Shown one piece after another: positions 16,541-21,865 of a stretch of 64,000 nucleotides of DNA. The translations under genes and the position numbers were made by a program. How positions within the stretch are numbered: the stretch's first letter is position 1; each line of letters begins with the position of its first letter. The notes under the pieces were generated by a model. The model ran no database searches, was not told where the DNA came from, and was given only the letters and a program-made list of their open reading frames with translations. The DNA is from Sulfitobacter aestuariivivens. GTDB taxonomy: Bacteria; Pseudomonadota; Alphaproteobacteria; Rhodobacterales; Rhodobacteraceae. Location: the NCBI RefSeq assembly GCF_014763045.1, contig NZ_JACTAG010000001.1, positions 186,001-250,000 on the forward strand. The letters run 5' to 3'.

Positions 16541-17288
16541 TATCATCCTTGAGGCCTTCGCGATCGAGGGTCTGGGATGGCTGGTACTGGCGGTAATTGC
16601 CGCAGGCCTTGTCCGCGGATTTTCCGGATTTGGGTCGGCCATGATTATCATGCCGGTCGCCTCGTCCGTTCTGAGCCCGGTGGAAGCGGTCATCTTTCTG
16701 GTCGCGACCGAACTCTTGGGTCCGCTGCCCAACCTGCGTGGTGCGTTGCGCGAAGGTGAGGTGCGTGATGTGGGGCTTTTGATGCTGGGGGTGGTGATCG
16801 CGCTGCCGTTCGGGCTTTGGTACCTTTCAAGTGTTGATCCGGTCATTTTCGGCTGGATGGTGTCGTGTTGCGTGATCGGGCTGTTGGTGCTTGTGATGAT
16901 GGGGTGGCGCTTCAAGGGGGAGTTGACCCGGGCGATGACCGTGGGCGCGGGCGCTGTCGGCGGATTCATGATGGGCATTGCAGGCATACCGGGGCCGCCG
17001 GTGATCATGCTTTATATGGCCAGCAAACTGCCCGTGTCGGTCATCCGGGCGAATTTCCTGCTTTATCTTGTCGCGATTGACCTCCTGCTTTTTCCATTGT
17101 TGTGGTTGGCGGACATGCTGGTCTGGAAGATCGTGGTGCTGGGCCTGCTGATTGGCGTGCCCAACCTGATTGCGAATTATGTCGGTGCTTTGTTGTTCAA
17201 ACCGGGCGCTGAGAAAGTTTTTCGCGCCGTGGCCTACAGTGTTATCGCCGCATCCGCTATCATCGGTCTGCCGGTCTGGAAGGGATAA
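16533..17288 (+). CDS. TauE/SafE-family permease (putative sulfite/organosulfonate exporter)
   Basis: This 251-residue integral membrane protein has about eight helices and two related halves (VLAVIAAGLVRGFSGFGSAM and AVGGFMMGIAGIPGPPVIML), the family signature. TauE/SafE members export sulfite, sulfoacetate or related anions; the substrate here is unknown. I take ATG 16533, which overlaps the secF stop, rather than 16506, which would overlap secF by 35 bases. It looks coupled to the sec genes. Confidence 0.8.
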   Translation: MPDIILEAFAIEGLGWLVLAVIAAGLVRGFSGFGSAMIIMPVASSVLSPVEAVIFLVATELLGPLPNLRGALREGEVRDVGLLMLGVVIALPFGLWYLSSVDPVIFGWMVSCCVIGLLVLVMMGWRFKGELTRAMTVGAGAVGGFMMGIAGIPGPPVIMLYMASKLPVSVIRANFLLYLVAIDLLLFPLLWLADMLVWKIVVLGLLIGVPNLIANYVGALLFKPGAEKVFRAVAYSVIAASAIIGLPVWKG

Positions 17289-17291
17289 GCC

Positions 17292-17645
17292 ATGCGCCTT
17301 AATGAGATTGTCTTTACCGATGCAAGTCCGATCGAAAGCTACGGGCCGGGGTTCTTTCGTGTGGGCGGCGCGGTGATCGAGGGTCCCATGATCACAAGCC
17401 CTAACGGGACGCAGCCCTGGGCGGGCTATGAGGACACCGAAAGCCTGCTGGCGCTTGCAGGCAAGGTGGATGTGATCTTCTTGGGCACCGGTGCAGATGT
17501 CGCGCACCTGCCAGATGTACTGCAATCGCAGTTGGATGACGCAGGCGTCGGGGTTGAAGCGATGGCCTCACCGGCGGCCTGCCGCACTTACAATATCCTG
17601 CTGAGCGAAGGCCGACGGATTGCGCTTGCCGCACTGCCGGTATGA
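17292..17645 (+). CDS. Mth938-like domain protein
   Basis: This 117-residue protein of the Mth938/NDUFAF3-like family (DUF498/DUF598) shows the pattern ESYGPGFFRVGG, EGPMITSP, then VDVIFLGTGADVAHLPD and a C-terminal ACRTYNILLSEGRRIALAAL. The mitochondrial homologue NDUFAF3 helps assemble respiratory complex I. The role of the bacterial protein is not settled. It follows the TauE gene by 3 bases and precedes the ccm genes. Confidence 0.88.
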   Translation: MRLNEIVFTDASPIESYGPGFFRVGGAVIEGPMITSPNGTQPWAGYEDTESLLALAGKVDVIFLGTGADVAHLPDVLQSQLDDAGVGVEAMASPAACRTYNILLSEGRRIALAALPV

Positions 17646-17678
17646 GCGGTCACTCTCTGCGCCAAGGAGAAATCAAGG

Positions 17679-17738
17679 ATGAGTTTAAGAGAAAGATGAA
17701 GGAAAACGGTGCGTGCTTCATCTTTCCAATAAACTCAT
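17679..17738. repeat. Long perfect-stem inverted repeat between the Mth938-like gene and ccmA
   Basis: Arms ATGAGTTTA (17679-17687) and TAAACTCAT (17730-17738) pair perfectly. Inside them GAAAGATGAAG (17691-17701) and CTTCATCTTTC (17716-17726) pair perfectly. A 3x3 internal loop separates the two stems and the apical loop has 14 bases. The 20 paired bases are AT-rich, unlike the surrounding DNA. A T-run follows directly on the plus strand (17738-17741), so it could end transcription of the upstream operon, but the stem is far longer than a normal terminator. Confidence 0.6.
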
Positions 17739-17835
17739 TTTGACAGAGCAGACCGGGTCGAAACCTTCGTTATGGAGGTGTGCTGTGGGCCAAAGATGCT
17801 TTTGCCCGCCCTATCAATAGGCTACGGCTGACGGT

Positions 17836-18456
17836 ATGGAACTGCACGTCGAAAATCTAAGCCTTGCGCGTGGCGGTGTGCCGGTGCTGACGGATGTCTC
17901 CTTTGTTCTGCGATCCGGACAAGCGCTGATCCTGCGCGGGCCCAACGGATCGGGTAAGACCACGCTTTTGCGTACCATTGCCGGGTTGCAACCTGCCTTG
18001 CGGGGTCAGATCATCGGGGCCGAAGATCAGATCGGATATGCGGGTCACGCGGACGGATTGAAGGCGATGCTGACCGTCGCCGAAAATCTGACATTCTGGG
18101 CGGAGGTCTTTGGACAGACTGACATTACCGCTGCACTTGATGCCTATGCGCTGCATCCTCTGGCCGACCGTCTGGCGGGCACTTTGTCTGCCGGACAGAA
18201 ACGGCGGTTGGGCCTCGCACGGCTGCTTGTCACTGGTCGCCCGCTCTGGGTTCTGGATGAGCCCACCGTTTCTTTGGATACCGACGCTGTGGGTCTTTTC
18301 GCCGCAGCGGTTGAGCGACATATGGCGGAGGGTGGCGCGGCATTGATGGCCACCCATATCGATCTTGGACTAACCGCTGCCGATGTGCTGGACATTACGC
18401 CGTTCCGCGCAGTGTCAGGCACCCGTGCCGGGGCGAGTGACGAGGCCTTCCTGTGA
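17836..18456 (+). CDS. ccmA: Cytochrome c maturation ABC transporter ATP-binding protein CcmA
   Basis: This 206-residue ABC ATPase has Walker [10 protein letters not shown] (residue ~35), signature LSAGQKRR (~120) and Walker B LWVLDEP (~140). With CcmB it powers release of holo-CcmE after haem transfer in the System I cytochrome c pathway. Its stop overlaps the ccmB start (GTGA). The family is normally about 200-210 residues, so it is intact. Confidence 0.95.
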
Positions 18457-19109
18457 CGGCGCTGCTGATCCGCGATCTGCGTCTTGCGATGCGCGCGGGC
18501 GGAGGTTTCGGCCTGGCGCTTGCCTTCTTTCTTATTGTGGTCGTCTTGATACCTTTCAGCGTCGGCCCGGAGGCCTCGTTACTGAGCGTCATCGCGCCGG
18601 GGGTCCTTTGGTTGGGAGCACTGTTATCCTGTCTGCTGTCCTTAGACCGCTTGCTGGCAATAGATTTCGAAGACGGAACCCTTGACGTGCTTGCAACCGC
18701 GCCACTGCCATTGGAGGCCGCACTGAGCATCAAGGCGCTGGCGCACTGGCTGACGACTGGTTTGCCTTTGGTGCTGGCCGCGCCGGTTTTGGGGGTTTTG
18801 CTGAACTTACCCGGTCAGGGGTACCTTTGGTTGGTTGCATCACTCGCGCTGGGTACGCCTGCGCTGTCGGTCATCGGCACATTCGGCGCAGCGCTGACCG
18901 TAGGCATCAAGCGGGGTGGTTTGTTGCTGTCGCTGTTGGTGCTGCCTCTCTACATCCCCACTTTAATTTTCGGGGCCGAAGTCGCGCGTCGAGGCGCCCA
19001 AGGCACGGACGCGACAACACCGCTGCTGATGCTGGCCGGGATCACGCTGGCCACCATCGCGTTGCTGCCCTTTGCGTCAGCCTCGGTATTGCGGCGCGGT
19101 CTGCGATGA
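18453..19109 (+). CDS. ccmB: Haem exporter membrane protein CcmB
   Basis: The 218-residue membrane subunit has six hydrophobic helices and the conserved [20 protein letters not shown] loop after helix 2. It pairs with CcmA. GTG 18453 is the start, overlapping the ccmA stop by 4 bases, which implies translational coupling. Confidence 0.95.
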
Positions 19110-19161: not shown

Positions 19162-19896
19162 ATGTCGATCTGGACCTATGCAAACCCGGTCAAATTTCTG
19201 GCCCTCAGCACCCGCGTGCAGCCCTGGCTCTGGGCGGCTGCGTCGATTGCAATCGGCGTCGGGTTGGTCTGGGGCTTTTTCGGAACACCCGACGACTTTC
19301 GGCAGGGTTCCACGGTCAAGATCATCTATCTGCATGTGCCTTCAGCGCTGATGGCCATTAACGCGTGGTTCATGATGCTGGTCACATCGCTGATCTGGCT
19401 GATCCGCCGCCACCACGTCAGCGCACTTGCCGCCAAGGCGGCGGCACCTGTGGGTGTGGTGATGACACTGATTGCGCTTGTAACAGGCGCGATATGGGGA
19501 CAGCCGATGTGGGGTACGTGGTGGGCATGGGATCCGCGCCTGACCTCCTTTTTGATCTTGTTCCTGTTTTACTTGGGCTACATCGCCCTGTGGGAAGCCA
19601 TCGAGGATCCCGATACCGCCGCTGATCTGACCTCTATCCTGTGCCTTGTCGGGTCTGTCTTTGCCGTCCTCAGCCGCTATGCAGTGCAGTTTTGGAACCA
19701 GGGTTTGCATCAGGGTACCTCTGTCCCGGTTGCCACGGGAGGGCGCACAGTGGCGGACGTTTTCTGGTATCCGCTCTTATTGTCGATGATCGGCTTTGCG
19801 TTGCTTTTTGTTGCTTTGGTTTTCTATCGCACAGGCACCGAGATCCGGATCCGCCGGGCCGCGGCGTTGCGGGCCCGCGCGGGCAGAGGGCTTTAG
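19162..19896 (+). CDS. ccmC: Haem lyase/delivery protein CcmC
   Basis: This 244-residue member of the haem-handling protein family has six helices and the tryptophan-rich periplasmic WWD-type motif (WGTWWAWDPRLTS, residues ~117-129). Flanking conserved His residues at HVPSALMAIN and in the C-terminal loop are expected to ligate haem. CcmC loads haem onto CcmE. It is 52 bases downstream of ccmB in the same operon. Confidence 0.95.
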   Translation: MSIWTYANPVKFLALSTRVQPWLWAAASIAIGVGLVWGFFGTPDDFRQGSTVKIIYLHVPSALMAINAWFMMLVTSLIWLIRRHHVSALAAKAAAPVGVVMTLIALVTGAIWGQPMWGTWWAWDPRLTSFLILFLFYLGYIALWEAIEDPDTAADLTSILCLVGSVFAVLSRYAVQFWNQGLHQGTSVPVATGGRTVADVFWYPLLLSMIGFALLFVALVFYRTGTEIRIRRAAALRARAGRGL

Positions 19897-20588: not shown

Positions 20589-20920
20589 AGTCCTGCAGGC
20601 CGGTATCTGGCCCCTATCCTTGATAGTGTTGATCCTGCTCTGGGCTGAAGGTCGTCGTGCAAAAGCGATCTGAAATTGGCGGCAGAATATCTGAATTCTC
20701 AGGAACATGTGCGCGCACCTGGCATGGCCAGACCTTCAGCATTTGGACCTTGGCTGGACTGATGCTGGGCTTTGTGTGCGAACCATCCCTGTGGGTCTGT
20801 GTCCTATGCAGGTCAATCGGGCCCTCTCTGAGCCTTTTTGGCGTTGGATCCGGTCGCATTTAAGCGCGACATGTCGTGGACTGCCGCTGCACATGATGCA
20901 AACAGGATCAGGAGATGCAG
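20589..20920. other. Intergenic region after ccmG
   Basis: These 332 bases hold no ORF with convincing coding character. A weak GGCC...GGCC stem lies just after ccmG and could help end its transcript. The bases immediately before the next gene carry a good AGGAG. I see no other structure. Confidence 0.4.
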
Positions 20921-21865
20921 ATGAAGGTCGGATTTATTGGGCTTGGCAACGTGGGTGGAAAGCTGGCGGGGTCGTTGCTCAGGAATGGCGTGGATCTTTA
21001 TGTCCATGATCTAAATGCGGATTTCGTGACCACAAAGGTCGCGGATGGCGCGAAGGACGGGCTGAGCTCTGCACACATGATGCAGACGTGTGATGCCGTG
21101 ATCACCTGCCTGCCGTCGCCCGCCGCCTGTGCTGCGGTTGTCGCGGAACTGTTGCCACATGTGGGGCCGGGCAGGGTCTGGATGGAAATGTCCACGACGG
21201 ATGCGGATCAGATCAAGGAACACGCGAACGCGGTGATCGCGCGCGGGGGCGAAGCCGTGGACTGCCCGGTTTCCGGTGGGTGCCATCGGGCGGATACGGG
21301 GAATATCTCGATCTACGCGGGCTGCACGCGGGATACGTTTGAAAAAGTGCTGCCGATCCTCACCCACATGGGGCGACGGATCTTGCATGTAGGGGATGTG
21401 GGGGCCTCCAGCACGCTCAAGGTGATGACCAATTATCTGGCCACCATCAATCTGCTGTCGCTTTGCGAGGCGTTGACGGTGATGAGAGCCGCGGGAATGG
21501 ATCTGGGTGTCACCTATGAGGCGATTGCAGCGTCGTCAGGGAATTCCTTTGTGCATGAAACGGAAAGCCAGTTGATCCTGTCCGGGTCTCGCGATGTCAA
21601 CTTCACGCTGGATCTTGTGCAAAAGGACGTCGGGCTGTTCCAGAAACTGGCGGACGATCATGGCGTGCCGCTTGAGATGTCGCCTCTGATGATCGAGATG
21701 CTGAGCGACGGGCAAAGGCGCTATGGGGACCGCGCGCAGTCCGATCGGATGATCGAACGGCTTGAGGAGGCGACGGGCCTTAGCATCACGGCACCCGGTT
21801 TCCCCACCGAACTGGTCGACGACGAACCCGAAGAGCGTGGCTATGAGGTGCCAGTACGGCGTTGA
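20921..21865 (+). CDS. NAD(P)-dependent beta-hydroxyacid dehydrogenase (3-hydroxyisobutyrate dehydrogenase family)
   Basis: This 314-residue protein has an N-terminal Rossmann fold (VGFIGLGNVGGKLAG), substrate-loop motif VDCPVSGGCHRADTGN (around residue 112) and the catalytic Lys in LKVMTNYLA (residue ~169), followed by the all-helical C-terminal domain. Family members oxidise short beta-hydroxy acids such as 3-hydroxyisobutyrate, tartronate semialdehyde or related compounds. The exact substrate cannot be read from sequence. ATG 20921 follows AGGAG by 6 bases and is preferred to the ATG at 20915, which lies against the AGGAG. Confidence 0.88.
   Translation: MKVGFIGLGNVGGKLAGSLLRNGVDLYVHDLNADFVTTKVADGAKDGLSSAHMMQTCDAVITCLPSPAACAAVVAELLPHVGPGRVWMEMSTTDADQIKEHANAVIARGGEAVDCPVSGGCHRADTGNISIYAGCTRDTFEKVLPILTHMGRRILHVGDVGASSTLKVMTNYLATINLLSLCEALTVMRAAGMDLGVTYEAIAASSGNSFVHETESQLILSGSRDVNFTLDLVQKDVGLFQKLADDHGVPLEMSPLMIEMLSDGQRRYGDRAQSDRMIERLEEATGLSITAPGFPTELVDDEPEERGYEVPVRR

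Follow-up and report, generated by a model that had tools for sequence, protein, structure and literature searches.

The hairpin upstream of ccmA

According to our analysis, the hairpin upstream of ccmA in Sulfitobacter aestuariivivens probably belongs to a set of chromosomal sites that selection maintains and that a putative sequence-specific trans-acting factor reads, the specificity of this factor drifting between species. The two arms of the hairpin would be copies, placed head to head, of one short and asymmetric recognition site, the half-sites of which (TGAGTTTA and GAAAGATGAAG in S. aestuariivivens) lie 3 or 4 bases apart, with the bases between them free to vary. The window, i.e., the whole stretch of 64,000 nucleotides that was analyzed, contains the element between a gene for an Mth938-like protein and the first gene of the ccm cluster (Table 1).

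The sequence-only reading had described a long, AT-rich hairpin with twenty paired bases in two perfect stems, and this description holds. The GC content of the element is 0.37 versus 0.58 across positions 17000 to 18500, and the two arms of 23 nt, separated by a loop of 14 nt, are complementary at 20 of 23 positions (87%), giving stems of 9 and 11 pairs split by a 3x3 internal loop. Folding of positions 17660 to 17760 as RNA yields -29.1 kcal/mol (z = -3.4), a value matched by 1 of 200 shuffles. The T-run reported at the end amounts to four T only, one of which belongs to the stem, and scanning positions 17200 to 18000 for terminators gave none. No Rfam 15 family reached its gathering score in positions 17500 to 17900, the only hit being mir-627 with 21.2 bits versus a gathering score of 86. 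Downstream of the element, the promoter-like stretch resembles the sequence of some relatives by eye; a strict sigma-70 scan did not find it.

Table 1. Element and neighboring genes in the window (positions are those of the window; contig C1 coordinates in parentheses)
Feature	Positions	Strand	Basis
Left unit, (A)TGAGTTTA-AGA-GAAAGATGAAG	17679..17701, core 17680-17701 (C1:203680-203701)	+	repeat and pattern search
Loop separating the arms, 14 nt	17702..17715	.	sequence and fold
Right unit, inverted, CTTCATCTTTC-CAA-TAAACTCA(T)	17716..17738, core 17716-17737 (C1:203716-203737)	-	pattern search
Four T closing the second arm, no canonical terminator tract	17738..17741	+	sequence and terminator scan
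DUF498 gene (PF04430; Mth938-like), upstream of the element	17292..17645	+	ORF and family match
ABC ATPase gene, ccmA by context, first of the ccm cluster, downstream	17836..18456	+	ORF and family match
ccmB, in the ccm cluster	18453-19109		
ccmC-like gene, in the ccm cluster	19162-19896		
Promoter-like stretch (GCTTTTG ... CAATAGGCTA) before ccmA, downstream of the element	17798..17824	+	by eye, inference

Copies of the unit in the genome

Each arm of the hairpin is a copy of a non-palindromic unit of 22 to 23 bp, TGAGTTTA-N3/4-GAAAGATGAAG. The search for further copies of the arms, which the sequence-only reading had proposed as a check, returned about 47 units in the genome of S. aestuariivivens (33 places with at most 2 mismatches and 14 places with a four-base spacer) and 0 in reversed-pattern controls. 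In the window alone, a 20-nt arm pattern with at most 3 mismatches has 2 matches, with 0.00 expected by chance. Genome-wide, the arm sequence CATCTTTCCAATAAACTCAT with at most 3 mismatches occurs at 28 places, a wider pattern with the same tolerance at 34, and the exact half-sites, with any spacer of 2 to 32 bases allowed, at 41, each with a control of 0. The spacing is strict, the last search giving 27 places with a spacer of 3, 14 with a spacer of 4, and none with a spacer of 2 or of 5 to 32. The density is approximately one unit per 90 kb, and by eye the extended consensus on the unit strand reads gcGGGAT-TGAGTTTANNGG-AAGATGAAG-cnGGGG.

None of the 30 places examined in this genome lies inside a called gene, as judged from genes called with a home-made script; outside this context check of the 34 places were C7:375566, C8:292945, and C7:314537, the latter being the sole 3-mismatch match. 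In Rfam 15, units in 16 other loci gave no gathering-score match, RNase P and SRP RNA being the only families found there, away from the units. At one locus (L061, C1:1197467), the unit adjoins a gap of 616 nt without a called gene, flanked by an nrdJ-like and an ECF-sigma-like gene (both named by eye), and the orthologous gap in the related genome G043 is also long; neither L061 nor L025 has an Rfam match.

Single units and facing pairs

We compared loci of four genomes, namely, 31 from S. aestuariivivens, 43 from G043, 37 from G018, and 20 from G008, those of G018 and G008 being a subset of the places listed. They hold 104 single and 43 paired units. With their flanks, single units fold with a median z of -0.04, versus -4.96 for paired units, and only 7% of the 104 fall below -2; the sequence is asymmetric, so the unit is not an imperfect palindrome. 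By eye, single units are about as close to the consensus as paired ones. The gap within the 22 distinct pairs is 10 to 21 nt in 15 cases, 14 of which span 10 to 16 nt, and 51 to 143 nt in the other 7. In 16 pairs with spacers of equal length, the spacers are complementary at 17 of 48 positions, which is below the random expectation of 0.51. Since single units are unstructured and the spacers less complementary than random, the hairpin would be a consequence of two sites facing each other, and it looks like the conserved object is the unit. The related genome G043 points the same way: its orthologous DUF498-ccmA junction holds a single arm only, oriented like the left arm of the window. Many other relatives have a short gap without a unit at this junction, the boundaries of which are not alignable. 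The suggestion of something beyond a terminator, with further copies in the genome, thus stands; the hairpin itself would not be what is conserved, as most of the units examined are single and unstructured and the G043 junction is one-armed.

The same data bear on the possibility that the element simply serves the DUF498 operon as a long intrinsic terminator, which we deem highly improbable even though a stable hairpin here follows a gene and precedes the promoter-like stretch of the ccm cluster, and even though convergent genes flank 25 of the 43 paired units. The short T tract and the negative scan argue against it, as do a stem that is not GC-rich, the conservation of primary sequence in many copies, the poor complementarity of the paired-arm spacers, and the lone arm in G043. 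The sequence-only reading had reserved the name of a plain terminator for a single-copy element with clean transcript termination at its end, and the genome has about 47 units.

Gene context

In the places examined, the sites are intergenic, close to the 3' ends of genes and not near divergent promoters. Of the single units, 101 are outside called genes; 29 of these are between convergent and 5 between divergent genes, compared with 13 and 44, respectively, of 151 distinct other gaps. Fisher tests on the loci of the four genomes give P values of 5e-5 (convergent) and 6e-7 (divergent), which are optimistic because orthologous sites were counted more than once. The remaining three single units, one each in G043, G018, and G008, are within called genes and did not enter the context test; that of G008 is in a phosphoglycerate-mutase-like gene. 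Between tandem genes, 50 single units are in sense and 17 in antisense orientation (5:2 in S. aestuariivivens, 16:10 in G043, 19:3 in G018, and 10:2 in G008). A promoter reading of the unit was dropped, many sites being between convergent genes.

Dialects and orthologous junctions

The spelling of the second half-site varies from one genome to the next but hardly at all within any of them, reading GAAAGATGAAG in S. aestuariivivens, GCAAGATGAAG in G018 and G008, GAAGGGTGAAA in G043, and, among the matches listed, GCAAAATGGAG in G001. Within the genus, 47 of 58 genomes have a match to the unit and 16 of 58 have at least ten, whereas the reversed control gives no more than 3 in any genome; zero copies in this count do not signify absence, because dialects with a four-base spacer are missed by the pattern. 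Related spellings are present in other genera. The spelling TTGAGTATTTNTGGNAAAATGAAG has matches in 19 of 61 genomes of the family, up to 47 per genome, with a control of 0 in all, and among the matches listed each genome with several of them has a spelling of its own. A deviant dialect in G024 (L012:1504-1561 and L022:1489-1545) has an altered first half-site, TGAATTGTA-TTGG-AAAGATGAAG, with matching arms, and a similar spelling is found at the purC-purS junction (L153). The reading of NTGAGTTTANNGGNAAGATGA as a hexapeptide mini-ORF was dropped by eye, its frame being broken in some dialects (G001, G024, and those with 4-base spacers).

The exact pattern is carried by 33 stretches of Sulfitobacter strains, Planktotalea, Rhodobacteraceae bacterium HTCC2083, and one Syntrophaceae MAG, where the match lies in a called gene (L096:2282-2303) and is probably due to chance. 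Four of the 33 stretches are in a phosphoglycerate-mutase-like gene. The exact 22-mer TGAGTTTATTGGCAAGATGAAG occurs in this gene, where it encodes the peptide EFIGKMK, at L094:678-699, L115:4801-4822, L103:7161-7182, and L112:1553-1574, its hosts being Sulfitobacter M05 and F26204, HTCC2083, and a Planktotalea MAG; a link between the unit and this coding sequence was set aside, the exact in-gene 22-mers being judged, though not proven, to be a coding coincidence. In Planktotalea and HTCC2083, a wide inverted pair (L100:5044-5232 and L116:4850-5038) is conserved between divergent genes, upstream of a gene resembling that for 3-hydroxyisobutyrate dehydrogenase (named by eye). A relative of this gene is found at positions 20915 to 21865 of the window, where the pattern in the dialect of S. 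aestuariivivens has no match.

When junctions were matched on both flanks, units at the same junction and in the same orientation numbered 17 between G018 and G008, 11 between G043 and G018, 8 between S. aestuariivivens and G043, 7 between G043 and G008, and 1 between S. aestuariivivens and G018, counting both arms of paired sites. At these junctions, 89 of 97 diagnostic cells are in the host spelling on both sides (23/24 for S. aestuariivivens-G043, 38/44 for G018-G043, 27/28 for G008-G043, and 1/1 for S. aestuariivivens-G018), and 8 of 97 are off the host dialect. The bases in the middle of the unit are identical at 9/24, 15/33, 8/21, and 2/3 positions in the same order of comparisons, and the 12-bp flanks at 70/192 (36%), 105/264 (40%), 73/168 (43%), and, for the single pair with G018, 13/24 (54%). 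Identity in the other core columns (128/128, 165/165, 103/105, and 17/18) is inflated, since the search pattern that gave the sites tolerated no more than 3 mismatches. No G043 place kept another spelling, as all 48 listed G043 places have at least 2 mismatches to the other dialects. Of 49 readable purC-purS loci of the genus, 35 have a unit-like sequence at the junction and 14 have none, with 3/49 in the reversed control; in other genera, the numbers are 3/25 and 1/25. An antisense unit at a recR/ybaB-like junction (named by eye) is conserved in G018 and G008. The dialect shift at orthologous places, as read from the genomes compared, is a strong result. Many sites stay at the same junction and in the same orientation in related species while the second half-site is respelled genome-wide, as may be expected if the specificity of the putative factor drifts and the sites follow. 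The data are most simply explained by selection acting via a common reader, because neutral relics should not change their spelling in concert as the sequence around them randomizes.

Mobility is the other account that these data address. REP and REPIN elements with their RAYT transposases are described, in PMC3116915 and PMC2817692, as short extragenic units of about 20 to 60 bp that occur as singles and as inverted doublets folding into hairpins. Were the units here REP/REPIN-like small mobile repeats, inverted pairs would move, singles would be their relics, and a trans-acting, co-evolving transposase would spread them. They share with REPs the dispersed extragenic location, the single copies alongside inverted doublets with short loops, and a species-specific sequence, PMC2817692 reports co-evolution of REPs and their transposases, and the many relatives with a short, unit-free DUF498-ccmA gap would fit as well. 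We nevertheless consider this unlikely. The Y1_Tnp domain (PF01797) has 0 matches in the S. aestuariivivens genome, while 5 of 14 control genomes were positive; the unit is not palindromic, and its consensus has no GTAG or GTGG head. In these three defining features the unit family fails to conform to REP/REPIN elements, its arrangement being alike. Furthermore, there are about 47 copies versus the hundreds usual for REPs, single units match the consensus no less closely than paired ones do, and in different species the same junctions are occupied in a new dialect, many sites being retained and respelled in concert. For this last reason, the proposal of a small mobile remnant also fits poorly. 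If the units were REP-like after all, they would constitute a repeat without the usual Y1 transposase. The terminal inverted repeats of MITEs or insertion sequences offer a similar likeness, with inverted pairs and a 22-bp end-like sequence; they differ in that single units predominate in the loci examined and many sites are orthologous, and we noticed no full-length element with unit-like ends in the coordinate lists and, by eye, no target duplication.

Replication polarity

Oriented from origin to terminus, single units are leading versus lagging in ratios of 19:3 in G008 and 33:5 in G018; the polarity is weak in S. aestuariivivens (10:5, P = 0.3) and G001 (18:10, P = 0.18). Origin and terminus were placed by sampled GC skew, not by dnaA or dif. 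The count leaves out paired units and those near the origin or terminus (ambiguous: 1, 3, 3, and 7), the phosphoglycerate-mutase-like matches and 3-mismatch places of G008 and G018, and G018 C7:128878 together with four arms of S. aestuariivivens that have a four-base-spacer partner; for S. aestuariivivens, also C8:292945 and the 14 four-base-spacer places; and for G001, all places outside contig C1. Of the two arms in the window, the left one is leading oriented, the skew being positive at 60 and 260 kb of C1. Gene and replication direction are partly confounded, since tandem singles are mostly in gene sense. In G008 and G018, however, hand tallies find all 5 antisense tandem units and 8 of 11 units between convergent genes to be leading oriented, which argues that there replication rather than gene direction matters; in S. 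aestuariivivens, 1 of 2 antisense tandem units is leading oriented (hand tally).

These tallies also bear on whether the unit acts as RNA, i.e., as a target that a small RNA or an RNA-binding protein recognizes in 3' untranslated regions or between cistrons, with dialects that track this one RNA or protein. The excess of gene-sense units between tandem genes is consistent with this, and a bipartite match with a free middle would suit base pairing. Yet antisense units are conserved too, in G018 and G008, and are all leading oriented there, if not in S. aestuariivivens; single units lack RNA structure; neither the element nor the units in the 16 other loci reach an Rfam gathering score; and a small RNA with exact complementary halves at another spacing, sought in the S. 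aestuariivivens genome, was dropped, such halves being absent at spacings of 2 or 5 to 32. An RNA-level element is thereby rendered quite improbable in our estimation. Given that the sites follow replication in two genomes, we infer that they may have a polar role at the DNA level in maintaining the chromosome (its replication, its segregation, or the organization of the nucleoid) rather than in local control of ccm.

Comparison with known systems and implications

Among polar chromosomal sequences, the KOPS read by FtsK, as described in PMC7901474, resemble the unit in being directional from origin to terminus, which here applies to two genomes. KOPS are 8 bp long according to PMC2680272; the unit has 22 bp, is sparse, is intergenic in the S. 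aestuariivivens places examined, and has species dialects, and it shows no significant polarity in two of the four genomes.

DNA uptake sequences of Neisseriaceae are 10 to 12 bp long and are present in about a thousand copies or more. Their dialects present a likeness in that a dispersed motif is respelled per species and forms inverted pairs near gene ends; the difference lies in the about 47 copies of 22 bp here. Among the matches listed from the open-licence literature, there was no description of the unit family, and the hairpin is an ordinary-looking member of an unusual and apparently undescribed family of sites.

It is possible, although we would not call it probable, that Rhodobacteraceae possess a chromosome-wide system of sparse, long, polar, and position-conserved sites, the code of which is rewritten across the genome per species together with a putative reader protein, and that these constitute an undescribed kind of site linked to chromosome maintenance or replication. 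If one factor reads all the sites, dozens of loci would have followed its changing code in step. Such a system, if real, would be a rare natural experiment in the joint change of a recognition protein and all the sites that it reads, and the 22-mer, used as bait, would provide a direct handle on the reader. The known parts of alphaproteobacterial chromosomes would also gain a sparse, polar type of site.
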